A DNA stretch of 20,629 nucleotides, taken from positions 1-20,629 of the IMG/VR virus record IMGVR_UViG_3300050821_021923; one strand, written 5' to 3'. This document shows, one piece after another, positions 6,792 to 20,629 of the stretch. A model generated the notes under the pieces. The model was not told where the DNA came from. It saw nothing but the letters and a program-made list of their open reading frames with translations, and searched no databases. Origin of the DNA: a virus. Position 1 is the first letter of the stretch; each line of letters begins with the position of its first letter. The translations under genes and the position numbers were made by a program.

Positions 6792-6794
6792 CGG

Positions 6795-7346: not shown

Positions 7347-7363
7347 CTTCACTTGCTCCTTCG

Positions 7364-7555: not shown

Positions 7556-7566
7556 CCTGCCTCCGG

Positions 7567-7592
7567 AAAAAGCGGGGAGTGGTTAGCTCCCC
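7567..7592 (-). terminator. Rho-independent terminator-like hairpin
   Basis: On the minus strand GGGGAG (complement of 7587-7592), a 7-base loop and CTCCCC (complement of 7574-7579) are followed by GC and a run of five T (complement of 7567-7571). That is the shape of an intrinsic terminator. It lies after the minor head gene, just before the ribosome binding site of the next gene, so it would lower, not abolish, transcription into the genes to the left, perhaps subject to antitermination by the NusG-like protein. Confidence 0.6.
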
Positions 7593-7608
7593 GAGTCGAG
7601 GGGAGGAT

Positions 7609-7659
7609 GCCCGTGACGGGCAGCGCGCACCTCGCGGAGGTGCGAGCCGCCGGGGGCTC
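7609..7659. repeat. Three further stem-loops in tandem before the terminator-like hairpin
   Basis: Three perfect inverted repeats follow each other: GCCCG/CGGGC at 7609-7621 with a 3-base loop, GCACCTC/GAGGTGC at 7627-7643 with a 3-base loop, and GAGCC/GGCTC at 7644-7659 with a 6-base loop. Together with the terminator-like hairpin they fill the whole 109-base gap between the minor head gene and the next gene. The use of the gap as a structured RNA or as a processing or termination site is inferred. Confidence 0.75.
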
Positions 7660-7664
7660 GAAGC

Positions 7665-8594
7665 TCAACTGAAACCAGGAACGATCGGTCGGCTCACGCA
7701 CCGACAGTTTATGAGCTGACCGGGAAGGATGTGTTTCCCCTCATCCGGGTCGTACCAGCCGGTCGCCAAATCGAAGACGATCTTATCGCGACCCGCCTTC
7801 AGATGGCTGGGGCGAGGTTCCTTGCCAGCGGTCGAATGAATCCACACCGCCTGGGTGATCCCGAGTTCCAACTGGCGGGCGCGCTGCAGTGAGGCGCCGG
7901 CCTTGTTGTTCTGATCCCGCGCGATAAGGTGCGCCCGGCGCTTGACCACGCCGAACTGATGTTGCAGGTCATCGCTCAACTGCTTAAGGTCACGGCCGGT
8001 GGCCACGGAGCGCGCGACAATACCCTCAATTTCCTGAAAGTATCGGGCCGGGATCGAGCGGATCAAGCTGACGTTCTCGTTGATCACGGCACGGTAGACG
8101 TCGCGCATCGCCGGGGTCATAGTGAACCGGACCGCCATCCCGCCGCGCTCCAGGCTGCGGCGCAGCGCGACGTCCGAGCGCTGGGCGATGGACCGCGCGA
8201 AGAACTTGGCGAGGTCTGCGGCGAGGTCGTCGAAGCGCCGGCGCCAATCGGCAGAGAGCCGGCGCACCCGGCGCGAGAGCGCGGCGGCGGGCAGCTCGTC
8301 CTGGGCAATGTGCGGCGGGTCCGCGCGGTACGCCGCCGCGACCCAGTGCGCGGTCGAGCGCTGCATGGCATCGATCAGGCGCAGCAGCTTCTTGCGGTAC
8401 TCGACCTCGACCGCGAGGGCCGGGCGGACGGGGGCGAGGGTTTTGGTCTTACGCGGCGTAGCATCAACCGCGGCGGTGGGACGCTGGGCGCCCGCTGGGC
8501 GCAAGAAAGGATTAGGCGAGGCGCGGTCGCGGGGTTGAACTAAGATAATTTTACGATTTGTGTCGGGTGAAGAAACTAGCTTAATCTTAATCAT
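7665..8594 (-). CDS. Minor head protein, SPP1 gp7 / Mu F type (phage head morphogenesis)
   Basis: This 309-aa protein ends with the signature of the phage head morphogenesis family (Mu gpF, SPP1 gp7): ARDQNNKAGASLQRARQLELGI, then AVWIHSTAGKEPRPSHLKAGR near residues 245-265, and PGQLINCRCVSRPIVPGF at the end. Proteins of this family sit in or on the capsid at the portal vertex, associate with the portal and help DNA delivery or assembly. The length is normal. The first 60 residues are basic and the DNA there is more AT-rich than the rest. The start ATG at 8594 overlaps the stop of the PhyH-type gene (ATGA). The usual partner, the portal gene, is separated from it here by five metabolic genes, an unusual arrangement. 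The gene is followed by a hairpin-filled gap. Confidence 0.9.
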   Translation of the reverse strand: MIKIKLVSSPDTNRKIILVQPRDRASPNPFLRPAGAQRPTAAVDATPRKTKTLAPVRPALAVEVEYRKKLLRLIDAMQRSTAHWVAAAYRADPPHIAQDELPAAALSRRVRRLSADWRRRFDDLAADLAKFFARSIAQRSDVALRRSLERGGMAVRFTMTPAMRDVYRAVINENVSLIRSIPARYFQEIEGIVARSVATGRDLKQLSDDLQHQFGVVKRRAHLIARDQNNKAGASLQRARQLELGITQAVWIHSTAGKEPRPSHLKAGRDKIVFDLATGWYDPDEGKHILPGQLINCRCVSRPIVPGFS

Positions 8595-9325
8595 ACCACT
8601 ACCAACCGTATCGCACGTTGCAGCGCCTCGTCGGCGGGGTAGCGGTCGCCAAGCAAGTCACGGGGGACGGCTTCCAGGCGGTCCCAGCGGTAGCTTTCCG
8701 GCGGGTCGCTAACGCCCCAGCGCGCCCACAGCAGCAGGCGTGGGGCGAGCGCCCGATCGCCGACGTGGAGGCCAGAGGTGTCAGCGAAAAACACCGTGCC
8801 TGCCTTACCGGTGACCGTGGCGACGCGCTCGGGCGGGGGCTCGGCAGGGTCGTAACCCAACTCAGCATCCGTCAAACAATGACTACCGCGCTGGTAGCGG
8901 TGGACCCCACCATCGGTGCCAAACATGAACATCACCAACTGCTTACGGTCGTCGCCGTCGCGGTGCCAGTAGTGGGTGTCCACATAAGGTAGCTGACCCG
9001 ACGCGGGCTGCGTCCAGAAAGCATTTACCGAGTAGAGCAGCGGCAACTCGCCAAAGTACTCCTGAGCCGCCGAATAAGTTGCTAACGCCAACTCAAAAAA
9101 ATTCGGCGCCGTCACTACATCCCGCATGTGGTGACTAAACGCGGGCCAGCGACTCTCCGCTAGCACTTGAAAGAGCGGAAGTGGCGGCTCGGTCGCTTTA
9201 GCTGCGACATGCGCGTTCCACACCAGTGTCTCACGTAGATGTTTGCGAAGGACCGCATGTGGTCCTGTCCAGAACGGCGAAAGATAGATACCATCGTGAC
9301 GGATGGCGTCAATTATATTACTCAA
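8591..9325 (-). CDS. PhyH-type Fe(II)/2-oxoglutarate-dependent oxygenase
   Basis: The frame is open back to 9445, but the part before 9325 overlaps the CgeB-like gene and reads as Arg/Gly-rich noise. The TTG at 9325 overlaps that gene's TGA (TTGA), and AT-rich coding begins there, so I chose it, giving 244 aa. The iron-binding facial triad is visible: THYWHRDGDD with His and Asp near residues 121 and 123, and SGLHVGD with the distal His near 187; an Arg follows in LAPRLLLWARWG, as expected for the 2-oxoglutarate contact. The surrounding layout (DTHYWHRD, GSH, GKAGTVFFADTSGLH) matches the phytanoyl-CoA dioxygenase family. Such enzymes hydroxylate lipids, sugars, amino acids or small molecules. 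Being between a glycosyltransferase and a head gene, it may modify a glycan precursor or a virion protein. Substrate not visible. Confidence 0.8.
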   Translation of the reverse strand: MSNIIDAIRHDGIYLSPFWTGPHAVLRKHLRETLVWNAHVAAKATEPPLPLFQVLAESRWPAFSHHMRDVVTAPNFFELALATYSAAQEYFGELPLLYSVNAFWTQPASGQLPYVDTHYWHRDGDDRKQLVMFMFGTDGGVHRYQRGSHCLTDAELGYDPAEPPPERVATVTGKAGTVFFADTSGLHVGDRALAPRLLLWARWGVSDPPESYRWDRLEAVPRDLLGDRYPADEALQRAIRLVVV

Positions 9326-10167
9326 TTCACGCCACCAGCATGAAGCACATCCCTCCAGAACACCGCGGGGTGGTGCTCGGCGGTGACCCGACGGTGAAGC
9401 GCGGCGGCGATCTCCTGCGCCTCGTCGTCGTAGCTTCGCGCCCAATCCAGCTTGGCGCGGGCGTCGTCCGGGTTCTCGTACTCCAGGTACTCGGTTCCGG
9501 GCGTGAACCAGCGGGCGGTAGCGCCGTTGCGGCGTTCTAGAAGCAGGCTTTGAGAGAAGCCTGCTTCTAGAACCCGACCCTTCACGTGGTCGGCGTTGCC
9601 GGTGCCGTTAATCGGCGCGTTGACCACCACTCGGCAGTCACAGAGGAACCGCGCCATCTCGTCGTGGCCGACGAGGCCCGGTGAGGCGGCACCCGTAGCC
9701 GCGATGACCCCGGTGCGCTCGCCAATGTCGCTGCCGGTGTAGCCCACCGGGACGGTGCGCTCGACCCAGGGGCGCGGCGCGTAGGGGCGCGGGTCGACCG
9801 GGGTCAGCTTGGTCAGGAAGCCCTCGCGCTCGGTCCCGTCGATGCTGACGTAGACCGAGAAGCAGTCCTCGCGCCGGTAGGCGTCCAGTGTCGGGTGCCA
9901 GGCATTGTCGCTCGCGTCGCCGCAGAGCAATACCGACGGCGCGACGTCGCGCAGGCGGCGTAAGACGTCGGTACCCGGCACGAACCCGACGACCGAGCCG
10001 AGGTAGACGATAAGCTCGGGGCGCAGGCTCTCGGCCTGGGTCACGAGGTCCATGTACCGGTCGTGCTCGTCGTAGCGCCGCGGCGTGACGTCCCAGCCGA
10101 CGGCCTCCAGGCTGCGCCACATGACCTCGCAGTTCGGCGTGCGGGTGTGGAGGAAGAGGGCCTTCAC
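9322..10167 (-). CDS. CgeB-like glycosyltransferase (GT-B fold, GT4-type C-terminal domain)
   Basis: The GTG at 10167 overlaps the TGA of the preceding glycosyltransferase (GTGA) and starts VKALFLHTRTPNCEVM, giving 281 aa; the longer open frame upstream is a shadow of that gene. The N-terminal half has Rossmann-like strands (ALFLHTRT, ELIVYLGSVVG, SVLLCGD). The C-terminal half carries the pattern of CgeB-type Glyco_trans_1_2 domains: VVVNAPINGTGNADHVKGRVLEAG, LLLERRNGATARWFTPGTEYLEY and an ending EEIAAALHRRVTAEHH-like helix. This matches the sugar-nucleotide binding region GR-x-x-EA...LLxE. Phage genes of this kind are linked to glycosylation of proteins, DNA or cell-wall sugars; here the surroundings favour a glycan on virion or host surface. 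A 17-bp perfect hairpin lies over codons for GRVLEAGFSQSLLLER at 9534-9573. Confidence 0.82.
   Translation of the reverse strand: MKALFLHTRTPNCEVMWRSLEAVGWDVTPRRYDEHDRYMDLVTQAESLRPELIVYLGSVVGFVPGTDVLRRLRDVAPSVLLCGDASDNAWHPTLDAYRREDCFSVYVSIDGTEREGFLTKLTPVDPRPYAPRPWVERTVPVGYTGSDIGERTGVIAATGAASPGLVGHDEMARFLCDCRVVVNAPINGTGNADHVKGRVLEAGFSQSLLLERRNGATARWFTPGTEYLEYENPDDARAKLDWARSYDDEAQEIAAALHRRVTAEHHPAVFWRDVLHAGGVN
9534..9573. repeat. Perfect 17-bp inverted repeat inside the CgeB-like gene
   Basis: GTTCTAGAAGCAGGCTT (9534-9550) and its exact complement (9557-9573) flank a 6-base loop. On the minus strand it codes for part of the conserved GRVLEAG...LLLER motif. The codons used here (CTA, TCT, CAA, CTT) are unusual for this GC-rich gene. 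No T-run follows, so it is not a standard terminator. Confidence 0.95.
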
Positions 10168-10814
10168 CCGGGCACGTCGACGTTGAAGCCGCGCAGGTGC
10201 GACAGGTCGTAGCCCGCGCCGTGGGTGGCGGCCCAGCGCTCCAGGAACACCGGCATGTCGTCCTCGTAGCGGGATGGCGTCGCATCGGCAGGCAGCGTGA
10301 CGATCGTGGTCTCGTGGACCGGCTCGCAGCGGCCGGCGGCGGCCCAGACGCGGAGCCCGAGGTCGCAGTCGCCGAAGCCGTGGCGGTAACGCGGATCGTA
10401 CCAGCCACCGACCGCGTGGGCGTCCTCGAGACGCATGAACGGGAAGTACGCGTAGTAACGGCCGAAAACTTGTCCTGTGTGCGGCGCTTGACGGAGCCCT
10501 AGGATGAACAACTGATCTCCCGCGCGACGCAGGTAGCCCTCGACCGCTAGCTCGTCCCAGCCCTCGACGTAGGCGTGGTCGTCGACGAACGCCGTGATGA
10601 AGTCGCCCGTCGCGTGACGGAACGCCGCGGCGTGGGCCGGCACGTTGCCTCTCGGCTCTTGCTCCTCGACCCATACGACACCGGCGTGGCGGACCGGGAA
10701 CGGCGAGACCGCGATGACCTCGACCCGGTGGCGGGTCGTCGCTTCGGCGATGTTGCCCAGCGTCCGCTCCAGCAGCTCCGGGTGAAGCGACGGTAGCGTA
10801 ATGCTGATCCTCAC
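10164..10814 (-). CDS. GT2-like (GT-A fold) glycosyltransferase
   Basis: The start GTG at 10814 overlaps the stop of the methyltransferase gene (GTGA) and gives 216 aa. The protein begins with MRISITLPSLHPELLERTLGNI, the first strand and helix of a GT-A fold, and contains GDFITAFVDDHAYVEGWDE near residues 70-88, where the DD pair corresponds to the DXD motif that binds metal and nucleotide sugar. RHGFGDCDLGLRVWAAAGRC near 145 resembles the ED-like motif of GT2 enzymes. Length fits a single catalytic domain without membrane segments. It would transfer a sugar from a nucleotide sugar to an unknown acceptor. The CgeB-like enzyme follows it immediately, so the two may act one after the other on one glycan. 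Confidence 0.8.
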   Translation of the reverse strand: MRISITLPSLHPELLERTLGNIAEATTRHRVEVIAVSPFPVRHAGVVWVEEQEPRGNVPAHAAAFRHATGDFITAFVDDHAYVEGWDELAVEGYLRRAGDQLFILGLRQAPHTGQVFGRYYAYFPFMRLEDAHAVGGWYDPRYRHGFGDCDLGLRVWAAAGRCEPVHETTIVTLPADATPSRYEDDMPVFLERWAATHGAGYDLSHLRGFNVDVPG

Positions 10815-11419
10815 TCCGGGTAGGCGAACGCCGCGCCGCGGTACGAGGAGTCGGGGTCGGACTCCTGCATGTACTCGATCCGGTGCGTCGGGCTCCACTC
10901 GGTCAGCGCGTCGCGGATCAGGTCGTAGTCGAAGTCGCGCACCTGGCCGTCGACCATGTAGCCGTCGACCCCGAAGTCCCTACCCGGCACGCGAAAGTCG
11001 TGGAACGCCAGCACGCCCTGGCCCCGCGGGATCGCGGCGATCTCGTCGCGGCAGGGCCAGCGGGCGCTGGAGTCCGGGAAGTTGTGCGCGTCGAGGAAGA
11101 ACAGCGTGCGGGCGACGGGCAGCGTGGGCATGATGTCGCGCAGCATCTGCGGCGAATCACCCTGGCAGAGCTGCCAGTCCGCCTCGCCGGCCTCGGCCGC
11201 CAGCAGCTCACGGGTCTGCTCCAGGCACGCCGGGTTGATCTCGATCCCCACGTAGCGCGGCGCGATCCGGCAGAACTCCAGCGCACTGCGGCCCGCCGCA
11301 ATGCCCGTCTCGACGATGACCTCGATGCCGCGCTCCGCGACGATGTCGGCGATCCGAGCGCGCAGGAACCGGTCGTCGAGCGCGTAGCCGGGGTGCGTCC
11401 AGCGGGGGTAGTCAGTCAC
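10811..11419 (-). CDS. Class I SAM-dependent methyltransferase (Methyltransf_24-like)
   Basis: This 202-aa protein starts with GTG at 11419, overlapping the 82-aa gene's stop (GTGA). VIVETGIAAGRSALEF near residues 34-49 is the glycine-rich SAM site, YVGIEINPACL near 56-66 the following acidic strand, and RTLFFLDAHNFPDSS near 104-118 the LDAH motif seen in the Methyltransf_24 and cephalosporin-hydroxylase-like groups. GVLAFHDFRVPG near 136 gives the HD pair common in these families. These proteins are O-methyltransferases, often of sugars. Its position directly before two glycosyltransferases suggests methylation of a sugar in the same pathway. An alternative is a non-enzymatic homologue; the motifs look intact, so activity is likely. 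Confidence 0.85.
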   Translation of the reverse strand: MTDYPRWTHPGYALDDRFLRARIADIVAERGIEVIVETGIAAGRSALEFCRIAPRYVGIEINPACLEQTRELLAAEAGEADWQLCQGDSPQMLRDIMPTLPVARTLFFLDAHNFPDSSARWPCRDEIAAIPRGQGVLAFHDFRVPGRDFGVDGYMVDGQVRDFDYDLIRDALTEWSPTHRIEYMQESDPDSSYRGAAFAYPE

Positions 11420-11664
11420 CCGAGTAACTCCCGCGCCCGAGTAACAGCTTCTTCAAAAGAAGAACATATTTCGACAACTACACCGTCGCCATCGAACGGA
11501 TCCCAAATGAAGATGCGACCTAAGCGATCCTTAACTACATCAAGGCGAGGACCATAATCCATCGCCGCATCGTAAGCATCATCGCTAACGTTTAAGCTAC
11601 TTGAGACAAAATGCTCGTGGTCGTCAGACCAACCATCGTACGGAGGATCCAGCGTGACGCTCAT
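11416..11664 (-). CDS. Small acidic protein of unknown function (82 aa)
   Basis: The ATG at 11664 shares its A with the TGA stop of the portal gene (TGATG), and its own stop overlaps the methyltransferase start (GTGA), which supports a true, coupled gene. The protein is acidic, beginning MSVTLDPPYDGWSDDHEHF, with beta-like stretches RIFIWDPFDGDGVVVEICSSF and a C-terminal helix. No motif is recognised. The gene is more AT-rich than both neighbours, suggesting a later arrival, perhaps together with the enzyme block that follows. A small regulatory or accessory protein of that block is possible. Confidence 0.7.
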   Translation of the reverse strand: MSVTLDPPYDGWSDDHEHFVSSSLNVSDDAYDAAMDYGPRLDVVKDRLGRIFIWDPFDGDGVVVEICSSFEEAVTRARELLG

Positions 11665-13499
11665 CAGTGCGCGCTAAAACCGCCCGATGCGGCCCCTCCA
11701 AACTTGGCCGCGGTGTTCGTGATGCCCGTGGCCAGCCGGTTGGCCGGATCCTTCGGCGGCGGGGTGCGACCGGGCGGCTGCTCACCTAATTCCTCGGGTG
11801 GCTTCTCGCCCTTGCCTTCGAGCATCTCGCCAGGCTGCTGCATCGGCTGACCAGTCTCCGGATCTAGCTGCCCGCCACCCTGCGCTAGCAACTCGGCTTG
11901 TTGCTGCTCCTGCTCGAACTCCTCCTGGGCCTGCTCTAGCTCCTGCTCCTCCAGCGCCGCCTCGACATCGAGGCCCTGGTACTGGGAGTCGGGGTCGGCG
12001 GCGAGGCGCTGGGCGATCGTCTTAGCGGTGATCACGCCCATGGCGAAATTGGCGTTGTCGATGTCGGTCTTGGTCTTCTGGATAGCGATCTTGCCAGCCT
12101 CGTCCAGCTGCCAAAGCGGGTTCCAATCCGCCTCGATGTCGGGGTCGACGTCGCCGAACTCGCTGAGCTGGATGAAATCCAGCATCCGCCGTAGCGGGTC
12201 GGCGAACAAGAACTCCTGGTAGGCGTGGATGTAATCGTAGAAGACTCTGATCTCGCCCTCGCTCGACGCGTTCAAACCGGCGGGCTGGATACCGAGCAGC
12301 TTGACCAGCGGTATACGGCTGACCGCCGACATGTGCTCCTGGCTCTGCGCTTGGAGCTCGTGCAGTCCGGCGATCGAGGCCGAGACGTTGGTGAACTCCT
12401 CCTGGTCCTTGTCCAGGAGCATCAGCCCCTGGTTGTTGCGCAGGTTGTTGAACAGCTGCGCGCGGTTGAACAGCAATTCCCCGTCGACCTGCATCGTCTC
12501 GCTGAGGTTCGTGCCGAGCACGAACGTGGTGAAGCTGACCACGAGGTCGGCCACGGCCTGGCGGGTGCGCAGCCAGTTGGTGACGTACGGCATCGCCATC
12601 TGGGTCATCGAGAGGCCGCCGAACGAGTAGGCGGGCTTCAGGATGTCCGGCACCTCGCGGCCGATCAGCGTCATCAGACGCGTGGAGTGGAGCTCCGTAC
12701 CCATGACGAACCACTCGCTCGGCTTGTACCAGCTGGGGCTAAGCGGGTTGTTCGAGTTATACCGCGTCGGGTACGTCCACACCGGCTCGACGTTGACGAA
12801 GCGCTTGAGGCTGCCGCGGGCCACCTTGGCCTTGGACATCTCGTTGCGGCCGTCGCCGACGTTGCTCTTCAGCTCAGCCGCGTCGCCGGACGAGAGCGGC
12901 GCGTCGAAGTCGATATCGAGCGTGTCGATGAAGATGTGCCCGCGACCGTAGAACCCGTCGTGCGCGGCAGCCTTGGCGAGCGTGGGCAGGACCTTGAGCT
13001 CCTTGATCAGCTCGTTCATGCGGCCGATGCGGTCGTCAGCCCTACCCCTCTCGCCCTCGCCCTTAGTCTTGAGCGTGATGCCCTCGCGGGTCATCTCGTA
13101 GGCGATGGTCTCCACGATGGCGCGGTACTCGGGGCGCTGGGCCAGCTCGGCCAGCGCGGTGTAGCCGAGGAAGCCCTGGCCCTCCATAAGGGAGGAGGTT
13201 GCGGCCCACTGCTGCGCCCACCCCGATACCTGGATCGGGGTGCTGTCCATCGCCAACTTGGGCGCGGCCACCTTGCGGTCGGGCGGTACCACGCCGGGGT
13301 ACGGCTGGGCCGGGGCCAGCAGCTGCTGGAGCTTGGCGTCGTACGCCAGCTTCTGGGCGGCGTCGCTGCGCGCGGCGGACCTGTTGACCAGCTCCCGGCT
13401 GACCGCGAGGCGGCCGCCGTTGCGCGAGACCGCCGCCTCGAACGCCGGGATCGTCGCCGGGACGACGCGGAGGTTAGAGGCGGGCATCGGGCAGAACAC
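11664..13499 (-). CDS. Portal protein, DUF1073 type
   Basis: The 611-aa product matches the DUF1073-type phage portal family in pattern: LGYTALAELAQRPEYRAIVETIAYEMTREGI near residues 110-140, HDGFYGRGHIFIDTLD near 190-205, FVNVEPVWTYPTRYNSNNPLSPSWYKPSEWFVMG near 245-280, and ISRIPLVKLLGIQPAGLNASSEGEIRVFYDYIHAYQE near 410-445. A twelve-subunit portal ring forms the DNA entry channel of the head. The last 100 residues are a Gln/Glu-rich coiled-coil-like tail (EEQELEQAQEEFEQEQQQ) and a proline-rich end. The start shown is GTG at 13499, with AAGG close upstream; ATG at 13487 is an alternative. It overlaps the upstream gene by 26 bases (14 with the ATG). Next to the trigger-factor-like and terminase genes it defines the head module. 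Confidence 0.92.
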   Translation of the reverse strand: MFCPMPASNLRVVPATIPAFEAAVSRNGGRLAVSRELVNRSAARSDAAQKLAYDAKLQQLLAPAQPYPGVVPPDRKVAAPKLAMDSTPIQVSGWAQQWAATSSLMEGQGFLGYTALAELAQRPEYRAIVETIAYEMTREGITLKTKGEGERGRADDRIGRMNELIKELKVLPTLAKAAAHDGFYGRGHIFIDTLDIDFDAPLSSGDAAELKSNVGDGRNEMSKAKVARGSLKRFVNVEPVWTYPTRYNSNNPLSPSWYKPSEWFVMGTELHSTRLMTLIGREVPDILKPAYSFGGLSMTQMAMPYVTNWLRTRQAVADLVVSFTTFVLGTNLSETMQVDGELLFNRAQLFNNLRNNQGLMLLDKDQEEFTNVSASIAGLHELQAQSQEHMSAVSRIPLVKLLGIQPAGLNASSEGEIRVFYDYIHAYQEFLFADPLRRMLDFIQLSEFGDVDPDIEADWNPLWQLDEAGKIAIQKTKTDIDNANFAMGVITAKTIAQRLAADPDSQYQGLDVEAALEEQELEQAQEEFEQEQQQAELLAQGGGQLDPETGQPMQQPGEMLEGKGEKPPEELGEQPPGRTPPPKDPANRLATGITNTAAKFGGAASGGFSAH

Positions 13500-13806
13500 C
13501 GACCTTTGTAAGCCACTCGATCAGGACGCTCCGAGCGGCGTAACGCAGCGTAGTAAAGCCAGCATCGATCAGTTCGCCGACCCACGAGAAGCGCATGGGG
13601 CACAACAACGTCTTCAGGTCGTGGTCGGATATCTCGACCGTCTCGACGCTGTCCGGACGCACAGCGAGCTTCTCACGCGCAGCCTGCTCGATCCGATCGA
13701 ACTCAGCGGCGACGAAACGCACGGTGAACTGTTGCGGCGGGATTATCGCCTCGTTAGTCTCAGCGTCCTCGATCCTAAAGACGATACGCACGCTCCTATC
13801 CGTCAC
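13474..13806 (-). CDS. Small protein of unknown function (110 aa)
   Basis: GTG at 13806 overlaps the stop of the preceding gene (GTGA). The protein starts MTDRSVRIVFRIEDAETNEAIIP, an acidic and beta-rich N-terminus, and has a more hydrophobic and basic C-terminal half ending SVLIEWLTKVGVLPDARL. It contains no recognisable motif, no signal peptide and no membrane segment. Its place between a small conserved phage protein and the portal suggests a role in head assembly, for example as an accessory or connector protein, but the sequence does not show it. Confidence 0.65.
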   Translation of the reverse strand: MTDRSVRIVFRIEDAETNEAIIPPQQFTVRFVAAEFDRIEQAAREKLAVRPDSVETVEISDHDLKTLLCPMRFSWVGELIDAGFTTLRYAARSVLIEWLTKVGVLPDARL

Positions 13807-14084
13807 GCCACGTACCCCCGACCCTGACGCCCGTTGAGGATCTTCAGGCGGACCTCGTCGCGGTTCACGCCCCAGACGACGACGCCGTCGGTCAGGATCG
13901 GCGAATCTTTGTTGGTCTCAACCCACTGCACGAAGCCACGGTCGCCGTCCGGGGCCTCGGTGAACGCGTAGCCGGCGTAGGTCTCGGGCCGCAGGTCTAC
14001 CGGTGTCTGCGGATCAACCGCCGGCCCCCGGGCGACGACACCGCCGAGGTTCAAACCGTTCGGATGGCTGCAGGCGATGATCAC
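13803..14084 (-). CDS. Conserved small phage protein (93 aa), unknown function
   Basis: GTG at 14084 overlaps the stop of the trigger-factor-like gene (GTGA); the longer open frame upstream to 14234 lies over that gene and was rejected. The product starts MIIACSHPNGLNLGGVVARG and continues with YAGYAFTEAPDGDRGFVQWVETNKDSPILTDGVV. This arrangement (cation-like HPNGL, GYGxT, an aromatic-Trp stretch and a short final strand) resembles a family of small phage proteins with LPHGL and GGYGIT motifs that often sits near terminase and portal genes. I recall no established function for it. A small structural or assembly protein is the best guess. Confidence 0.65.
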   Translation of the reverse strand: MIIACSHPNGLNLGGVVARGPAVDPQTPVDLRPETYAGYAFTEAPDGDRGFVQWVETNKDSPILTDGVVVWGVNRDEVRLKILNGRQGRGYVA

Positions 14085-14569
14085 GCTGCAGCTTTCGCCC
14101 GGTTGTAAGTGTCGAGTTCTTGGATAGTCCGCTCGCAGAACCCGCTGACCGCGTCGGTGTCTAGCGGCGGCAGCGCGCTGTAGTAGGCGTGCAGCGACGC
14201 CGTGAACGGCAGCCCCCGGATCCCGCAGGGGCACGGCAGCTCAGGGCGGTGGCGGGCACGGACGGTCAGCTCGACGTCGCCGGTGATGCTGAGCACCTCG
14301 GTCTCCGGCTCGGCCACCAGGCACATCGCGTCGGTAGCGTGGGCCACGGCGGCGTCGACCAGCCGGTCGATCATCCGGGTGCGCACCGCCTCGCCGAGAT
14401 GCCGGCGGATCACATCGTGCGGCACCTTGCCGGGGCGGAAGCCGTGCCGCGTGTACACGCGACCGAGGTCCTCGATCTCCTCGGCGATGCGCGCCTCCAC
14501 CTGGGCGGCGGGGATCGTGACCGCCAAGTCGCGGGTGAAGAACGTGCGGGCAGTCTCGGTGACCTTCAT
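14081..14569 (-). CDS. Trigger-factor-like ribosome-binding domain protein
   Basis: The first 115 of 162 residues read as the N-terminal domain of trigger factor, the bacterial chaperone that sits at the ribosome tunnel exit. GFRPGKVP occupies residues 43-50, the same numbers as GFRKGKVP in Escherichia coli trigger factor, whose FRK loop docks on ribosomal protein L23; Phe44 and Arg45 are kept and the lysine is proline. The preceding stretch LAVTIPAAQVEARIAEEIEDLGR and following HDVIRRHLGEAVRTRMIDRLVDAA also match in order and spacing. ELTVRARHRPEL near 100-111 fits the last strand. The peptidyl-prolyl isomerase and C-terminal chaperone domains are missing; a 45-residue unrelated tail with a CPC motif replaces them. 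The ATG at 14569 overlaps the upstream stop (ATGA). Its operon suggests assistance to late protein folding or a hold on host ribosomes. Confidence 0.78.
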   Translation of the reverse strand: MKVTETARTFFTRDLAVTIPAAQVEARIAEEIEDLGRVYTRHGFRPGKVPHDVIRRHLGEAVRTRMIDRLVDAAVAHATDAMCLVAEPETEVLSITGDVELTVRARHRPELPCPCGIRGLPFTASLHAYYSALPPLDTDAVSGFCERTIQELDTYNRAKAAA

Positions 14570-14805
14570 CGCTTCGCCGCCTGCTGGAAGCCGCTACTCG
14601 CGACCGGCGCGGGCGGCGTGATGCCGAGGTCGAGCAGCAGCTGGCGGTACTGGTCCGGCGCGCCCGCCGCCGAGGCGAAGGTCACCAGCGCCTGCTCCAG
14701 GCGGTCGAGGCGGTCCAAGATAGTCTGCTCAATCGGATTTGGACCTGGGCCACCAACGGGAGCCACGAGGTCCGCCTCATTCACCATAATCGTCGGTGTT
14801 GGCAT
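14566..14805 (-). CDS. Small coiled-coil-like protein (79 aa)
   Basis: The ATG at 14805 is preceded by AGGGAAG, a good ribosome binding site, and the stop overlaps the start of the trigger-factor-like gene (ATGA). The protein has a proline/glycine-rich N-terminus, then NPIEQTILDRLDRLEQALVTF, a heptad-like helix that may form a coiled coil, and a proline/alanine-rich end. No catalytic motif is present. Short proteins of this type near terminase genes can be scaffold-like or terminase accessory proteins; the sequence does not say which. Confidence 0.65.
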   Translation of the reverse strand: MPTPTIMVNEADLVAPVGGPGPNPIEQTILDRLDRLEQALVTFASAAGAPDQYRQLLLDLGITPPAPVASSGFQQAAKR

Positions 14806-14806
14806 A

Positions 14807-15085
14807 CTATCTTCCCTCCATCATCATGCGCTCGATCTGCTCGCGGTCGGTGAACCACAGCGGCCGGGCGATCGGCCGGGGCATCGGCGGTCGCGGCTCG
14901 CGGACGGCGAGCGGCACGCTGCCGTGCCCGATACGCGTCTTCGAGGGCAGGCTAGCGCTCTGGCCGATGCGGGTCACGGTCTTGACCGACACCCCGGCTA
15001 GCGTCGCGATCTGGGTCAGCGTATGCTCGGCCCACAAGCGGCGGACCTGGTGGCGGATGGCCGGGGTGACGATGACGCGCGGCAT
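14807..15085 (-). CDS. Helix-turn-helix DNA-binding protein (92 aa)
   Basis: ATG at 15085 shares a base with the TGA stop of the large terminase gene (TGATG). A TTG one codon earlier is possible but less likely. Residues 10-45 contain HQVRRLWAEHTLTQIATLAGVSVKTVTRI, a helix-turn-helix of the type found in resolvases, transposases and small regulators: a first helix, TLTQIATLAGVS for helix two and turn, and VKTVTRI for the recognition helix. The rest is proline and arginine-rich, unlike a repressor with a dimerisation domain. Placed after the large terminase it might be a regulator or a DNA-recognition part of packaging. Confidence 0.75.
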   Translation of the reverse strand: MPRVIVTPAIRHQVRRLWAEHTLTQIATLAGVSVKTVTRIGQSASLPSKTRIGHGSVPLAVREPRPPMPRPIARPLWFTDREQIERMMMEGR

Positions 15086-17055
15086 CAACGCCCCCTATTA
15101 GTCCACGGACCGGCGGCCGCGCTCCGCTGCAGCAATGCGTTGCTGACGAACAGCCCCGAGCCGACAACCGGCTTCGGCTTATTCTGCTGACCGTAGGCCT
15201 CGCCCTGGAACCCGGTCTGGCTGCGCGCGACGATCTCGTGGGTTACCCGCATGTCGGCGCCGGTGCGCGCGTAGAGGATCATCAGCGCGTCAGCTAGGTT
15301 CGGGCTGCGCGTGCCCTCGGGCGCTTTGTCGATCTCCATCTTGCCGGTCGGCGGGTCCTTCTTGAACACGGGCTGGCTCAGCTCGGCCGTGAGCTTCAGC
15401 CGCATACCCGGCTGGCCCTCGTCGATCGAGCGGCTCAACGAGATGATCTCGTCACGGTGCGCCGGCGTCACCTCGCCGGTCTCGTCGTCCGGCACCAGCG
15501 CGCGGTACGTCACGCGGAAGCGCTCGCGCAGGCTCCACCACGCCTGCGCCTTGCGGTTACGGAACATGTCCTTGTTCTTGCGGCCCTTGACGTCCTGCGC
15601 CTCGGGCATGTAGGGGGCCTCGCTGCTGCGAAACGGGGTCACGTAACGCGCGGGCTGACCGTTGGCGCTGCGGTGCTCGTTGACCCGCCGCGCGTCGCCG
15701 CGGCAGCTGGCGCCCATGCCGTCGCTGTCGTAGCGGAAGCCCTCGAGCTCGAAGTGGTCGCAGATGCGGAACGCGCGCTCGACACTGGCGTAGATGTCCG
15801 AGCCCTTGCCGGCCCACTCTTCGACCCACTCGACGACGACCCCGTGGGCCACCGCGAACGCCAGCAGATCGCCACCCTCGTCGGCCACGTCGAAGCCGCC
15901 GCTCTTCTTGCCCGTCGGCTCGATGCCGAGCTTCTCGTGCGCGTCGAACGCGGCCAGCACCCACGCATGGGGGATGACCACGCCCTCGACGCTAGCGGCG
16001 TAGTCGATGTCGAGCTCTTGGGCCACGATTGCCGGACTGAACGCCTCGGCGCGCTGCTTGGCGTACCAGGCGTCGTCCTTCCGCGGGTCATCCTTCCAGT
16101 GGAACGTGAAGACCTTGACCCGGCCGGAGTGACGCAGCTGCTCGAACGGGCCACCGAGCCCGGCGGGGGTCGAGATATCCTGGCGACAGTTGGTCGTCGA
16201 ACTCAAGCTCGCCTCAGCCAGCTGCGGGTGCTCGAGGTGCGCCGACTCATCGATGAAGTAGATGCTCGTGCGCGAGCCGCGGCCGATGTTATCACCCTGC
16301 TCGCCTGACAGCATCGAGTTCGTGTCAGGAAAACGAATCCGCATCTGCGCGGTATCGCGTCTCGGGTCCCACGAACCGCGAAATTCGGGCGGTAGCGAAC
16401 TCACAAAGGCACGAGCCTTCCAGAACAAGCTCTTCGGTTCGCCAATCGCATCGACATACTCCGCCAGACGGCTACCGAAGCCCGCGACGAAGCCCTCGGT
16501 CAGTAGCGCCAGAGTGCAACTAAGGCTGACCGCCAACCAACTGACACCACTCTCGCGCGACTTTTCGGTAAGCCCGCGCTGACGATTCTTCCAGCACTCT
16601 ACAACGAAGTCGATCCACTCGCGCTGGCGCGGGAACAGCACGAACGGGATGCTAGCCGGCAGGCCGACGTCCGCGTTGCGCGGGTCGAAGGTCATGCCCC
16701 AGTCGCTGATGAAATCGGCAGGGCGCTCGCGGTAGAACTCACGCAGCGGCCCCATCAGCCGCGGGTCGGTCCGCAGTCGCGCTAGGCGCTCGTCGCGCAA
16801 CGCGTAGAGCGGCGCGTAATCCGGGGCCATGTAGTCGAACGCCTCGAACTCATCGCCACGCACCCAGCCCACCGGGTCGCCGCCGTACTCGCCGGGGTCC
16901 AGCGGAGCGTATCCGCGCTCGGTACGCTTGCGCTCGGCCACCTCGGCCTCGAGCCGGCGGCGCTCCTCGGGCGCGAAGTAGCGGCGGTAGAGCTCCTCCT
17001 GCCGCTCGCGGGGCAGCCCGCGTAGGCGTTCCTTAAGCTCGATCTGGCTCAGCAC
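15085..17055 (-). CDS. terL: Terminase large subunit (TerL), packaging ATPase and nuclease
   Basis: This 656-aa protein drives DNA into the prohead and cuts it. In the ATPase half, GLTEKSRESGVSWLAV (near 161-176) is the Walker A region in the variant form with lysine ahead of the glycine, SIYFIDESAHLEHP (near 264-277) the Walker B with the catalytic Glu, and SLSSTTN (near 283-289) the coupling motif. In the C-terminal half, GGFDVADEGGDLLAF (387-400), YDSDGMGA (near 440) and SPNLADALMILY (near 593-605) supply the acidic residues of the RNase H-like nuclease. The N-terminal 115 residues are a charged, helical extension. The start is GTG at 17055, overlapping the small basic protein by 23 bases, with no strong ribosome binding site, which suggests coupling. 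Length is at the upper end for phage TerL. The best anchor of the whole window. Confidence 0.96.
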   Translation of the reverse strand: MLSQIELKERLRGLPRERQEELYRRYFAPEERRRLEAEVAERKRTERGYAPLDPGEYGGDPVGWVRGDEFEAFDYMAPDYAPLYALRDERLARLRTDPRLMGPLREFYRERPADFISDWGMTFDPRNADVGLPASIPFVLFPRQREWIDFVVECWKNRQRGLTEKSRESGVSWLAVSLSCTLALLTEGFVAGFGSRLAEYVDAIGEPKSLFWKARAFVSSLPPEFRGSWDPRRDTAQMRIRFPDTNSMLSGEQGDNIGRGSRTSIYFIDESAHLEHPQLAEASLSSTTNCRQDISTPAGLGGPFEQLRHSGRVKVFTFHWKDDPRKDDAWYAKQRAEAFSPAIVAQELDIDYAASVEGVVIPHAWVLAAFDAHEKLGIEPTGKKSGGFDVADEGGDLLAFAVAHGVVVEWVEEWAGKGSDIYASVERAFRICDHFELEGFRYDSDGMGASCRGDARRVNEHRSANGQPARYVTPFRSSEAPYMPEAQDVKGRKNKDMFRNRKAQAWWSLRERFRVTYRALVPDDETGEVTPAHRDEIISLSRSIDEGQPGMRLKLTAELSQPVFKKDPPTGKMEIDKAPEGTRSPNLADALMILYARTGADMRVTHEIVARSQTGFQGEAYGQQNKPKPVVGSGLFVSNALLQRSAAAGPWTNRGR

Positions 17056-17236
17056 GCCGATTGTCGCTGGCGTGCCGATCCATACAGATCGAGTAGGGAT
17101 CGCGCCACATGATCGGCTGCGGGCGGCGCATACGCTTGAATATTCTCAAGTAAAGATCAACGCGACGTGGCAACAGCGGGACGCTGCTCCCGTACGGCCA
17201 CTCGAATTCGCGAAGTTTACGGAAGCTGTTCTTCAC
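17033..17236 (-). CDS. Small basic protein between the terminase genes (67 aa)
   Basis: GTG at 17236 overlaps the stop of the candidate small terminase (GTGA). The frame is open to 17566, but the upstream part lies over that gene and is noise. The product, starting MKNSFRKLREFEWPYGSSVPLLPRRVDLYLRIFKRM, is strongly basic with aromatic residues and is unlike its GC-rich surroundings in base use. It overlaps the start of the large terminase by 23 bases. It may bind nucleic acid or help the terminase; no motif identifies it. Its tight fit between two genes supports it being real. Confidence 0.6.
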   Translation of the reverse strand: MKNSFRKLREFEWPYGSSVPLLPRRVDLYLRIFKRMRRPQPIMWRDPYSICMDRHASDNRRAEPDRA

Positions 17237-17682
17237 TCCGCCGCCTCGGCGAACTCGGGCTCGTCGGCGAGCAGCTCGCTGACCGAGGCCAGGTTCTCGA
17301 TCAGCTCGAGGTCGGCCATCTCCTTCGGGTCGCGCGTGCCGCCGATCTTCACCATGCTCAGCTTCGCGTGCATGTACGGCGCGAGGTCGACCGCGCAGGC
17401 CTGCGCGTCCTGGCGCGACTGGCGCGACTTCCTGTGGATAGCCTGCAGCTCCTTCACCGGTGCGCCCTTCTCCAGCAGCCGGTAGAAGTCGGAGTCGAGC
17501 AGCTCGGCCTCCTGGTGGTAGAAATGCATGTTGATCGCCATCACCTGCATCGGCGTCAGGTGGCAATCCGCGAGGATCTTGCGGGCCTTGCCGGGCGAGA
17601 GCTGTGGCGGGCGCCCGTGGCCCCGATGCTCCAGGGTCAAGGTACCGGGCTGCCGGGGGCGGCGGTTGGGGCGTCCGGGCAT
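17233..17682 (-). CDS. Candidate terminase small subunit (TerS)
   Basis: The 149-aa protein lies two genes upstream of the large terminase, the usual place of TerS. It begins MPGRPNRRPRQPGTL, a basic, proline-rich start seen in many phage TerS proteins (MPGRP), followed by SPGKARKILADCHLTPMQVMAINMHFY, a helical segment that could be the DNA-binding part. The middle has AQACAVDLAPYMHAKLSMVKI and the end is acidic (ADLELIENLASVSELLADEPEF), which could contact TerL. TerS recognises the phage DNA and starts packaging. The match is by position and pattern only. It starts at the ATG at 17682; a copy of this start region occurs at 17819-17832. Confidence 0.65.
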   Translation of the reverse strand: MPGRPNRRPRQPGTLTLEHRGHGRPPQLSPGKARKILADCHLTPMQVMAINMHFYHQEAELLDSDFYRLLEKGAPVKELQAIHRKSRQSRQDAQACAVDLAPYMHAKLSMVKIGGTRDPKEMADLELIENLASVSELLADEPEFAEAAE

Positions 17683-17832
17683 TACCGCTTAGCCAGCATC
17701 ACGCAAATGGCTATTGTCAATAACCCGGTGGGAATCACTCACGATCCGATTCCGATGTGCCTAAAGTTTCCGGCTTCACCAGGTGCGGTGTCACGATTCT
17801 CCCTCAACTTTACCGATAGGGCGTCCGGGCAT
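17669..17832. repeat. 14-bp direct repeat: the start of the small terminase gene is duplicated
   Basis: GGGCGTCCGGGCAT occurs at 17669-17682, where it is the start of the small terminase gene (MPGRP on the minus strand), and again at 17819-17832, three bases beyond the stop of the HNH gene. The second copy opens a frame of 13 codons, MPGRPIGKVEGES, and then stops. The two copies are 136 bases apart. Confidence 0.9.
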
Positions 17833-17835
17833 GGC
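17683..17835 (-). promoter_or_regulatory. Gap between HNH gene and small terminase with a possible promoter
   Basis: This 153-base gap has no gene of its own apart from the 13-codon duplicate. On the minus strand a perfect -35 hexamer TTGACA (complement of 17715-17720) lies 33 bases before the ATG of the candidate small terminase. The expected -10 is weak (TGGCTA at 19 bases spacing). A promoter restarting transcription for the head genes is possible, not shown. Confidence 0.35.
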
Positions 17836-18399
17836 TTAGGCAGCAGCCAGTTGCGTGCGATGACTACGGCGCTTTTGGCGACGCTTTACTCGCACTAATT
17901 GGTCTAAAGCAATTACCTCAACCGTTTTAGCAACTAATATCATAGCAAATCTATCACTAATTCCAGCAATCTTACCCCTTCTCCCGTAATACTTTCCCTC
18001 TTCGCGAATAGATACAGTATTGCCACGAGTAAATTCCGTTAAATTTACTCGCCCCTTTGCTTCTAAGTAATTTTCCAGCGCGATAAATATTTCTGAATTA
18101 GGGTGCAATTTGGAGACGTCCATCTTTATCGGCGTAACCCAGCCCAACTCTTCCCAATTCTGAATAACGTTTCCGTCTTTATCGAGCAGCCACGGTGCCC
18201 AATGGGACATAAGGCGATCTTTTTTAGACCTATTGCAGGAAGTACACAATATCTGAAAATTGCTAGGCCGGTCTGAACCGCCCTTAGCTCGGGGATGAAT
18301 GTGATCTAATTCCCACGAGACTTCGTGTAAATCCGCGCCGCATCGCAGGCAACGAAAATTACATCGTTGAAGCAATCTACTGGCGATTTCTCGAGCCAT
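17836..18399 (-). CDS. HNH endonuclease with a C-terminal KOW-like domain
   Basis: The start ATG at 18399 (MAREIASRLL) gives 187 aa; an upstream TTG in frame at 18441 is less likely. The HNH part has CLRC (Cys17, Cys20), VSWELDHIHPRAKGG with the Asp-His pair at 32-33, NFQILCTSCNRSK with the second Cys pair at 52 and 55 and the final Asn. The DNA-cleaving fold is complete with its zinc knuckle. After a linker, residues 125-175 read TVSIREEGKYYGRRGKIAGIS and end VIALDQLVRV, a KOW/SH3-like barrel as in NusG and some ribosomal proteins, an unusual addition. The gene is markedly AT-rich against its neighbours and lies next to the packaging genes, as many homing HNH genes do. It may be mobile, or it may assist terminase in making cos ends, as HNH proteins do in several phages. 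Confidence 0.85.
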   Translation of the reverse strand: MAREIASRLLQRCNFRCLRCGADLHEVSWELDHIHPRAKGGSDRPSNFQILCTSCNRSKKDRLMSHWAPWLLDKDGNVIQNWEELGWVTPIKMDVSKLHPNSEIFIALENYLEAKGRVNLTEFTRGNTVSIREEGKYYGRRGKIAGISDRFAMILVAKTVEVIALDQLVRVKRRQKRRSHRTQLAAA

Positions 18400-18573
18400 T
18401 TTGCCCGCTTTACCTATAGCAAGGGCAGGTACGCGGAACAAGGATGTTCACGCGCAGAGGCTTTAATGCCGAGGCCGCTTCGGCCATCTCGCATCCCGGT
18501 TCTTCCCGGCAGTCGGGAATAGCGGTAACCCAACAGGATGAGCTTAGTAAGCCGATTTTAGGCGCGGGTAAAG
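18400..18573. other. Gap between the small Cys-rich gene and the HNH gene, with stem-loops
   Basis: This 174-base stretch contains GCCGA/TCGGC at 18468-18484 and a perfect TTCCCG/CGGGAA stem with a 5-base loop at 18503-18519. There is no T-run beside either, so neither is a plain terminator. A 62-aa frame at 18410-18598 overlaps both neighbours and shows no coding character, so I left it out. The gap may be the scar of the HNH insertion or hold its processing signals. Confidence 0.5.
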
Positions 18574-18816
18574 TTAAAATAAGGGCTCCTGCGCCCATCG
18601 ACGCTCAGCAAGCGTTATTTCACCGAAGTGGCGTCGCGGATTACCACAACAGGAATTGGCGCACGACTTCGGTTGCTCGCGAAATTTCGCCATCGCTCTC
18701 GGATCGGCCGCGCAAGGACATGCTAGATTGTTGTAGTGCTGGTTCACGTGCTCCTTACGCCGACGGTTGCCGTGCGAGTCAGCCTGGTGACGTCGGTAGG
18801 CGCGCGAACGGGTCAC
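18574..18816 (-). CDS. Small Cys-rich CGNPRR-type protein (80 aa)
   Basis: GTG at 18816 overlaps the stop of the NusG-like gene (GTGA). The basic N-terminus MTRSRAYRRHQADSHGNRRRKEH is followed by CPC near residue 33, SCANSCCGNPRRHFGEITLAERRW near 50-72, and a short end. The CANSCCGNPRRxxG arrangement recurs in a widespread family of small phage and bacterial proteins with a CGNPR motif, of unknown function to me; Cys spacing suggests zinc binding, and the basic start suggests nucleic acid contact. It is the second gene of the late operon, right after a transcription factor, so a role in regulation is possible. Confidence 0.7.
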   Translation of the reverse strand: MTRSRAYRRHQADSHGNRRRKEHVNQHYNNLACPCAADPRAMAKFREQPKSCANSCCGNPRRHFGEITLAERRWAQEPLF

Positions 18817-19430
18817 GCCGGTACCACCCCCACGGGACGCACCACCGGGAAGTCAAGGAACGTCAGCGGCTTCTGACGGCGGCCGACGACCCCGACCTTT
18901 CGCAGGTGCCCGAACGGCACCTCGGCCTTGATCTCGCCGACGTTGAACAGCCCGCGCAGCACGACCCAGGCGGTGGTCTTGGTCAGCCACTCCACGCGCC
19001 CGTCGAGCTTCTCCAGCACGCCGGTTATCACCGTCACCCGGTCGCCGCGGTCAAAGGGCACCTTCGCGGGCGCGTCCGTGGGCATCTCCATCAGCCAGTC
19101 GCTCTCGGTACTGCGGAGGATCATCTCCTCGACCCGGCCGTCGAGCGCGCGCTGCGGCTCCCCGCCGCCAATAAAACCCAAGTAACCCCTAGTATTCGCG
19201 ACCTCGTGCCACCGGTGCGCGAAGTAACGGGGCAGCTGCACGAAAGTATAGCCGGGGGTCATGGTAAACATGCGCGAGTAGGTGGCGCCGCGGTTGACCC
19301 ATCTGCGGCGCTCGACGGGACAGAATGCTCGGTATGGTGTTGGGTCTTGATCTAAGAGTCTTGCCGCTGGCAGCTCGTAGCCTGACGCGAACCGCGCGGC
19401 GTACCAGCCTATACTCGACTCAGCGCTCAA
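18813..19430 (-). CDS. NusG/RfaH-like transcription elongation (antitermination) factor
   Basis: The protein has the two-domain plan of NusG paralogues. An N-terminal NGN-like domain starts SIGWYAARFASGYELPAARLL and has FCPVERRRW, FTMTPGYTFVQLPRYF and GYLGFIGGGEPQ, the usual path of NGN strands, though with a longer middle. A C-terminal KOW domain follows with PFDRGDRVTVITGVLEKLDGRVEWL near residues 127-152 and a closing PFGHLRKV. NusG proteins bind RNA polymerase, stop pausing and couple it to other factors. I start at TTG 19430, because CGGGAG lies nine bases before it; TTG at 19448 is the longer alternative. It is the first gene of the leftward operon, about 80 bases after a strong promoter, so it may act on its own operon. 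Length (205 aa) is normal. Confidence 0.85.
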   Translation of the reverse strand: MSAESSIGWYAARFASGYELPAARLLDQDPTPYRAFCPVERRRWVNRGATYSRMFTMTPGYTFVQLPRYFAHRWHEVANTRGYLGFIGGGEPQRALDGRVEEMILRSTESDWLMEMPTDAPAKVPFDRGDRVTVITGVLEKLDGRVEWLTKTTAWVVLRGLFNVGEIKAEVPFGHLRKVGVVGRRQKPLTFLDFPVVRPVGVVPA

Positions 19431-19510
19431 AATCCAAGTCTCCCGCAACTAAATTCGCGTAACACGGACGGGCGCGCTCGGGGCAACCGCTCAACCGGCC
19501 CAAAGCAGAG

Positions 19511-19546
19511 CCGCGCAATTATACGCCCGCGAAGCAGCAAGGTAAA
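19511..19546 (-). promoter_or_regulatory. Sigma70-like promoter of the leftward late operon
   Basis: On the minus strand TTTACC (complement of 19541-19546) and a perfect TATAAT (complement of 19518-19523) are separated by 17 bases, the ideal spacing. The start of transcription would be near 19511, giving a leader of about 80 bases before the NusG-like gene. The -35 matches the consensus at four of six bases. I see no comparable promoter for the rightward genes. Confidence 0.65.
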
Positions 19547-19581
19547 CTAGCTTCTATTTTCTCCACTCTCCAGCCTCTTTA

Positions 19582-19690
19582 GTAACCCCCGTAACTATAG
19601 CGTAACTTATTATGTAACCCCTATAGAGTAGGGTATATGCCTTTGTATACTATAGCCTATCTACGCTTGTAACCCCCGTAACCCCTATAG
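19582..19690. repeat. Array of six GTAAC(CCC) repeats and four CTATAG palindromes
   Basis: GTAACCCCC or GTAACCCC starts at 19582, 19614, 19669 and 19678, and short GTAAC copies start at 19591 and 19602. CTATAG stands at 19595, 19621, 19650 and 19685. The 13-base unit GTAACCCCTATAG occurs identically at 19614-19626 and 19678-19690. Read on the minus strand this is CTATAGGGGTTAC. The array lies upstream of the leftward promoter. Confidence 0.85.
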
Positions 19691-19956
19691 TGTATATAAA
19701 GCTACGCTCGAAATACATATATCACTACACCTACTATACGTAGTCACATATAGTACGTACCTAAAAACACCCGCTACAGGGTAAACGTACAAGGTGCCCG
19801 GTTTTAGGCGGTTACGCGTTACGTCGTTATACTTATGCTAATATAGCGTAGCGCTAATACACTAATGTAATCAATCATCTAACTAAACACCCCCACCCGG
19901 CCCTAACTTTATATATTTACTTCGCCGCCCGTAGGGTATAGGCTCTTACCGTCGCT

Positions 19957-19971
19957 TTTTGACCGTCAAAA
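19957..19971. promoter_or_regulatory. Operator-like palindrome next to the first rightward gene
   Basis: TTTTGAC and GTCAAAA form a perfect 7-bp dyad around one base at 19957-19971. It touches AGGGGG at 19971-19976, the likely ribosome binding site of the gene starting at 19982, so a protein bound here could block transcription or translation of the replication genes. Confidence 0.55.
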
Positions 19972-19981
19972 GGGGGTTATC

Positions 19982-20299
19982 GTGCCGATCGAGGACCCGA
20001 ATATCGCCGCGTTCCTCACTCGTTGGTACGATCTCTTCGGCTACAACCCGGTCACGGTGCGCACCATCGTGGCCACCGCGCTAGAGCACGACCCGGACCT
20101 GCTGCGCTTACTGACGGCGCTCGCCCCCGAGCTGGCCCACGCGCCGCAGCCACGCCCCTTCTCGCGGTGGCTGCTGCGCCACGAGAACTTCCCGCTCGCC
20201 GATGGTGCCAACAACGCCTTCCGCCTTATGCGTCTGCGCACTACGGTTGACGGCGCCCTGTGGTGTCTCCGCCCCCTGACTGAGGCCGCTGTAGCTTAG
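19982..20299 (+). CDS. Unknown small protein at the start of the replication module (105 aa)
   Basis: GTG at 19982, five bases after AGGGGG, opens a 105-aa frame. It begins MPIEDPNIAAFLTRWYDLFGYNPVTVRTIV and has HDPDLLRLLTALAPELAHA in the middle. The end, RPFSRWLLRHENFPLAD...AFRLMRLRTTVDGALWCLRPL, resembles the winged-helix modules attached to phage primases and helicases, where a short basic wing ends in a Trp-containing strand. It may bind DNA at the origin or help the primase that begins 22 bases downstream of its stop. I know no named family for it. Confidence 0.65.
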   Translation: MPIEDPNIAAFLTRWYDLFGYNPVTVRTIVATALEHDPDLLRLLTALAPELAHAPQPRPFSRWLLRHENFPLADGANNAFRLMRLRTTVDGALWCLRPLTEAAVA

Positions 20300-20321
20300 C
20301 CGCGCACCGGACGCCTATCTC

Positions 20322-20629
20322 GTGCCGCCGCCTACAGGCCGCACCGACGACGCCATCGCGTGGCTGCTTGCGCTCGCGCCACGCGGCCCGTGGTTCCTCT
20401 ACTCGGCGGACTCTACCGGCAAGGAGAGCGGTCTGCCGATGCGGCGCTTCGCTGGTCCCGACTCCGCCGAGGCCCGCCGCTGGATCGACGAGCGCCAGGG
20501 CCGTTACAACCTGTACTACTCCCCCAACTCGCCGCTCCCCACCGTCACCAAGCACCCCACCAAGCCTGAGATGACGCACCTTAACGTGCTCCACGTCGAT
20601 CTGGACCTGCCTAAGGGCGGCCCGTACTC
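20322..20629 (+). CDS. Primase-polymerase (archaeo-eukaryotic type), N-terminal part, cut by the window edge
   Basis: The frame from GTG 20322 is open to the right edge with 102 complete codons. It begins MPPPTGRTDDAIAWLLALAP and continues RYNLYYSPNSPLPTVTK...KPEMTHLNVLHVDLDLPKG. A sequence of the form NLYYSxN, then a Lys-rich loop, then LHVDLDLP is the start of the AEP primase core found in phage and plasmid replication proteins, where the two Asp in VDLD bind the catalytic metals. It would make primers, and in longer proteins is followed by a helicase. No strong ribosome binding site is visible, so coupling with the upstream gene is possible. The remainder lies outside the window. Confidence 0.75.
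   Translation, partial: MPPPTGRTDDAIAWLLALAPRGPWFLYSADSTGKESGLPMRRFAGPDSAEARRWIDERQGRYNLYYSPNSPLPTVTKHPTKPEMTHLNVLHVDLDLPKGGPY

Follow-up and report, generated by a model that had tools for sequence, protein, structure and literature searches.

A stand-alone trigger factor ribosome-binding domain encoded among the packaging and head genes of a phage

The stretch of viral DNA analysed here (the window), an entire IMG/VR record of 20.6 kb (20,629 nt), carries on its minus strand a stand-alone gene for the N-domain of trigger factor (TF), hereafter referred to as TFN (14081-14569). Our main reading, to which we assign a probability of about 0.5, is that the encoded protein combines the ribosome-binding domain (RBD) of TF with a phage-specific C-terminal tail, and that it would dock at uL23 and there compete with or replace the TF of the host. 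The open reading frame called in the earlier note is real and encodes 162 aa from an ATG start codon. Pfam Trigger_N (PF05697) matched residues 1-113 (14231-14569, minus strand; profile positions 1-117 of 144) with an E-value of 3.5e-16 and a score of 60.2 bits, as compared to a gathering cut-off of 22.2, and a phmmer search of PDB sequences returned TFs only (1t11, 9e-6; 1w26, 7e-4). Furthermore, a profile built from TF N-domains, with the TFN protein left out, scored TFN at 58.6 bits, while the best of 2000 shuffled versions of TFN reached 6.5 bits. Based on the Pfam score and the shuffle control, the match is far above chance, and the homology of residues 1-113 to the TF N-domain is virtually certain. 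The equivalog model TIGR00115 gave 49.6 bits against a cut-off of 180.2; TFN belongs to the Trigger_N domain family and lies outside the TF chaperone family.

The first 80 residues of TFN could be aligned in gapless register with 22 TF N-domains, which bore out the claim that the ribosome-docking loop GFRPGKVP is located at residues 43-50 (14420-14443, minus strand). This GFRxGxxP signature is part of a loop (residues 39-50) between helices H21-38 and H51-81. Such a loop was reported to be indispensable for contact with L23 and to suffice for it (PMC3130931), and TF binding additionally involves contacts with L29 and domain III of the 23S rRNA (PMC9527764). When TFN was compared with 43 TF N-domains, the identity was about 30% at most. 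Of the columns conserved at 70% or more in this set, 17 of 24 were kept in TFN, and in the loop all eight positions were kept, making the ribosome-contact loop the best-kept stretch of the protein. Because the loop motif was the main criterion for collecting the TF set, loop conservation within this set is inflated, but this way of collecting does not explain why the loop was retained in the divergent phage copy. The helix-loop-helix region (residues 36-66) has a net charge of +6, as opposed to -3 for the whole protein. In a phylogenetic tree, TFN was placed on a long branch (end branch 2.88), weakly near the alphaproteobacterial TFs (support 73/92). Since this placement is weak and the branch is long, we make no claim on the origin of TFN.

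A TF-like fold was also predicted. With an alignment consisting of the TFN protein and the TF N-domains from the retrieved loci, AlphaFold2 produced a model with a mean pLDDT of 84.5, in which strands 2-8 and 12-19, helix 21-38, the loop, helix 51-81, strands 89-94 and 99-106, and helices 124-132 and 138-161 follow each other. In this model the order of the N-domain elements (E-E-H-loop-H-E-E) is that of the TF N-domain, as had been proposed from the letters alone. The comparison of a predicted structure with the TF N-domain, which the earlier note had suggested as a check, came out in agreement: a Foldseek search of the PDB returned the E. coli TF N-domain (1oms and 1p9y; E-values of 3e-8 to 1e-7, TMt 0.84-0.86, rmsd of about 2 Å). 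As the alignment contained TF sequences, the model could have been steered by them. An alignment-free model predicted from the single sequence was poorer (pLDDT 62), and its top seven PDB matches were all TFs, with probabilities of 0.91-0.97 for the top three. The viral structure library contained no match to the TFN model at E ≤ 0.001. Together, these predictions strongly support the fold of the TF ribosome-binding domain for TFN.

The remaining domains of TF are missing, as had also been claimed. Neither the PPIase domain (FKBP_C, PF00254; no match at E ≤ 1) nor Trigger_C (PF05698) was matched anywhere in the record, and a frameshift truncation of a full TF was ruled out by the absence of any further TF domain. 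In their place, TFN has a 49-aa tail (residues 114-162; 14081-14230, minus strand) with two predicted helices (124-132 and 138-161), for which no family match and no PHROG match were obtained. When scored with a profile of TF linkers, the tail ranked about 450th among 5000 of its own shuffles, and the idea of a decayed TF linker was rejected; judged from its sequence, the tail is new and phage-specific. A CPC motif at residues 113-115 (14225-14233, minus strand) forms part of PCPCG, which is similar to the opening half of a SEC-C motif. However, the CxCx8C[CH] pattern is absent, the second Cys/His pair is missing and Pfam SEC-C gave no match, arguing against the tail being a SEC-C motif.

TFN is embedded in a tightly packed gene row on the minus strand, the genes of which overlap in a similar style throughout. 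This row comprises the genes for the terminase large subunit (TerL; 15085-17055, with a weak match to phrog_5989), a 93-aa HTH protein overlapping TerL by 4 bp (14807-15088; LacI-type HTH, E = 3e-4, below the cut-off), a 79-aa protein (14566-14805), TFN, a second 93-aa protein (13803-14084), a 110-aa protein without relatives in viral contigs (13474-13806) and the portal protein (11664-13499; Phage_portal_3, Pfam E = 2.4e-77; phrog_146, 1.5e-104). The start and stop of TFN each overlap the neighbouring gene by 4 bp: the stop codon of the 79-aa gene overlaps the TFN start (ATGA), and the inferred GTG start of the 93-aa gene overlaps the TFN stop (GTGA). The GC fractions at codon positions 1, 2 and 3 were 0.70, 0.50 and 0.90 for TFN and 0.62, 0.56 and 0.82 for its tail alone; they were 0.67, 0.48 and 0.87 for TerL and 0.65, 0.43 and 0.91 for the portal gene. 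The coding composition of TFN, tail included, is normal and like that of its neighbours. The minus-strand gene row is headed by a gene for a NusG-like antiterminator (18813-19448; Pfam NusG, 1.4e-7; phrog_6386). The single promoter-like site on the minus strand of positions 11000-20629 is located upstream of this gene (TTTACC-17-TATAAT, 19546-19518), a match that is in itself no evidence of function. Elsewhere on the minus strand (3109-11419), genes for sugar and methyl transfer surround a Mu-F-like head gene. They include genes for a TPR protein with a glycosyltransferase-9-like end, an FkbM methyltransferase and further methyltransferases, and no relatives of these transfer genes were present in the related phage loci.

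The position of TFN between terminase and portal, as described in the earlier note, was confirmed; this place is not a conserved one, and the relatives have TerL and portal side by side. Viral contigs contained 312 relatives of TerL, the best at 58-59% identity, and Burkholderia phage Magia is among the phages in which a homologue is annotated as terminase large subunit. Portal relatives showed up to 52% identity. In 65 of the 68 loci where both genes were visible, TerL and portal overlapped or lay within about 208 bp of each other, counts that are not independent since many of these loci are close copies. The other three loci had inserts of 0.7-1.7 kb, two of which (L040 and L045) contain unrelated ORFs. 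Accordingly, the five small genes in the window make up an insert of 1.6 kb at a junction that is otherwise conserved. The search for the same gene near the portal genes of other phages, which the earlier note had proposed as a test of conservation, was negative: Trigger_N was found in none of 50 records with a related TerL or portal gene, and no TFN match was found in the flanks of the TerL and portal relatives. Together with the usual adjacency of TerL and portal, this absence marks TFN as cargo of its phage and not as one of the standard head genes.

The search for other stand-alone TF N-domain genes was equally negative. Motif scans of IMG/VR, which loops with other codons or residues escape, identified no second one, and TFN was carried by one record only. 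Close relatives of the TFN protein were absent from viral contigs, and in the genome collection its relatives were two complete TFs only. Matches in the phage and plasmid collections were weak, with several of the plasmid matches annotated as tig. Among the phage-collection matches inspected, an annotated tig gene on an Acinetobacter 'phage' contig was discarded as it adjoins clpP and clpX in host-like DNA, and three unannotated faecal fragments carry long TF reading frames. Scans for GFR[PK]GKVP revealed no closed short version, the cases that could be read through being complete tig genes. Further scans of viral contigs with a GC-rich GFRxGK[VATI]P pattern (GGNTTCCG..) and with a GFRKGK pattern gave host tig genes that were complete or broken by contig ends. 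One 137-aa protein with GFRPGKIP (L181:3866-4276, minus strand; L185:406-816, plus strand) was rejected as a TF N-domain since its match is confined to the loop region, which implies that the loop motif alone can arise by chance; this unrelated, cysteine-containing protein ends with GFRPGKIPPEQIAKR. In 285 of 299 Pseudomonadota genomes Trigger_N was present, almost always as a single copy. Three genomes had two matches and, with these left out, all frames among the matches listed were at least 435 aa long. The GFRK scan additionally revealed a 75-aa N-terminal tig fragment beside a tRNA-Gly gene on a prophage-like contig (L224:8168-8395, minus strand), which has the appearance of an integration event within or at the tig gene. 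A complete host tig gene is present on several prophage contigs from IMG/VR, on some of them with a tRNA-like sequence just upstream.

The same scan identified complete, divergent TFs on four viral contigs of 49-239 kb (L215:4171-5415 and L220:4547-5755, plus strand; L221:1883-3127 and L225:1442-2686, minus strand), with matches to phrog_26774, Trigger_N and Trigger_C; the proteins from L221 and L225 are identical. Like TFN, these are Trigger_N proteins on viral records. Unlike TFN, they have about 400-414 aa from the ATG and retain Trigger_C; of the three that were scanned, two also showed FKBP_C (E ≤ 0.001). Their loop reads GFRKGKAP instead of GFRPGKVP, and their N-domains are 16-18% identical to that of TFN. 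Moreover, whereas TFN lies among head genes, these TF genes adjoin a gene of PD-(D/E)XK exonuclease type and, as far as can be seen on the contigs, SbcC/SbcD-like or DNA polymerase III-like genes. As a check for hallmark genes, PF07068 and PF03237 were searched on these contigs; neither of the two profiles gave a match, which says little about the contigs either way. The family phrog_26774, listed as of unknown function, could be renamed phage trigger factor. In the same region of L225 as the complete TF, a peptide deformylase is encoded (11364-11894, minus strand; Pfam 1e-24) with a SEC-C-like C-terminus (DPCPCG...KNCC), bringing two tunnel-exit factors together.

Compared to the bacterial TF (tig; PF05697, PF00254 and PF05698; TIGR00115), TFN shares the homologous residues 1-113 and a loop at the same residue numbers, while it lacks the PPIase and C-terminal domains. 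A closer parallel is Tig2 from plant plastids (At2g30695), a TF that is devoid of chaperone activity (PMC11731035). Like TFN, Tig2 is a TF cut down to the RBD with its GFR loop, lacking the PPIase and C-terminal domains, and it is encoded by a gene separate from that for full-length TF. Tig2 co-sediments with ribosomes, and its ribosome association exceeds that of Tig1 about threefold; its RBD did not prevent the aggregation of the substrates tested, and it contributes to the maturation of the 50S subunit, where it may serve as an exit placeholder (PMC11731035). Tig2 is absent from cyanobacteria (PMC11731035), and earlier work cited there found it in land plants and not in the prokaryotes studied. 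In contrast to TFN, which adds a 49-aa tail and is encoded within a phage structural gene row, Tig2 is plastid-targeted and ends at the RBD. An RBD-only TF is thus already known in plants, and TFN is such a protein in a phage. In the literature searched, which included few subscription papers, there was no report of a phage TF, complete or truncated, and a survey of Southern Ocean viruses states that no analogue of TF was found (PMC8407431).

Homology, fold and the intact loop make it probable that TFN docks on the host ribosome. Its GFRPGKVP loop would bind uL23, next to uL29 and domain III of the 23S rRNA, at the tunnel exit, and docking would be timed with the expression of the packaging and head genes. 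Once docked, TFN would compete with or stand in for the full-length TF of the host while offering no folding cradle, and the early handling of nascent chains would be altered on ribosomes that make virion proteins, with the tail deciding what TFN contributes or obstructs at this site. Since the docking clip was kept and the folding cradle is missing, TFN should dock but not act in folding. By analogy to Tig2, it would most likely occupy the tunnel exit during the expression of the packaging and head genes. Competition, or a placeholder function at the exit, is quite conceivably its main role, though we predict this only tentatively. Roles in competition, recruitment and biogenesis all predict the same sequence. 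A stricter proposal, in which TFN plugs the exit, evicts host TF and lets its tail rewire the earliest contact made by nascent virion proteins, strikes us as somewhat unlikely. More doubtful is a mini-chaperone or recruiter that is anchored on the ribosome via the RBD and uses the tail or the N-domain to bind TerL, portal or another head protein from the same operon during its synthesis. The location of TFN, which overlaps its neighbours by 4 bp in the row from TerL to portal, and a tail that is unrelated to TF and has two predicted helices, would fit this idea, but TFN is absent from the 50 related TerL/portal records and from the sequences flanking every relative, the adjacency of TerL and portal in 65 of 68 loci implies that these proteins fold without TFN elsewhere, and the Tig2 RBD failed to keep the substrates tested from aggregating (PMC11731035). 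A role as portal or capsid chaperone in particular is possible, with gene position as the one point in its favour, and it is weakened by the absence of TFN from the related TerL/portal phages tested and by the lack of chaperone activity in Tig2.

The precedent of Tig2, which is ribosome-associated, consists of the RBD only and serves 50S maturation without chaperone activity (PMC11731035), also raises the idea that TFN has no role on nascent chains and instead protects the tunnel exit of 50S subunits that are idle or still maturing and preserves the ribosomes of the host for use at late stages of infection. Tig2 is, however, plastid-specific and tied to hidden breaks in the 23S rRNA, and the location of TFN among packaging and head genes suggests a role after ribosome assembly, so that we regard this as improbable. 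It would be very improbable that TFN is a fragment of a host tig gene that was captured by recombination, is free of selection and is on its way out. Its single occurrence, its shortness relative to TF and the fact that prophages do adjoin tig, including the contig with the 75-aa fragment beside tRNA-Gly, would be accounted for. Yet a recent piece would resemble host tig, whereas TFN is about 30% or less identical to any TF compared and nonetheless has its loop and core columns intact; the GC content at its codon positions is normal, tail included, 4-bp overlaps are present at both ends, and no remnant of the PPIase domain or Trigger_C is left in the record. Least probable of all is the reuse of the TF N-domain fold for a purpose beyond ribosome binding, for instance as part of the virion or of its assembly machinery: the head-gene neighbourhood and the long divergence (end branch 2.88) are compatible with it, but the stretch of TFN that has been kept best is precisely the ribosome-contact loop.

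Deformylase, SRP and TF all encounter nascent chains at the ribosomal tunnel exit. A phage protein limited to a copy of the TF docking clip would be a natural probe of the competition at this site, and TFN would be the second case of an RBD-only TF, after plant Tig2. If TFN indeed plugs the exit, a viral effector would be at work at the uL23 docking site, a kind without an earlier case in the literature searched, few subscription papers being included. The complete TFs on large phage-like contigs, one of which also encodes a deformylase, suggest that the control of the tunnel exit by phages may be more extensive than has been reported.
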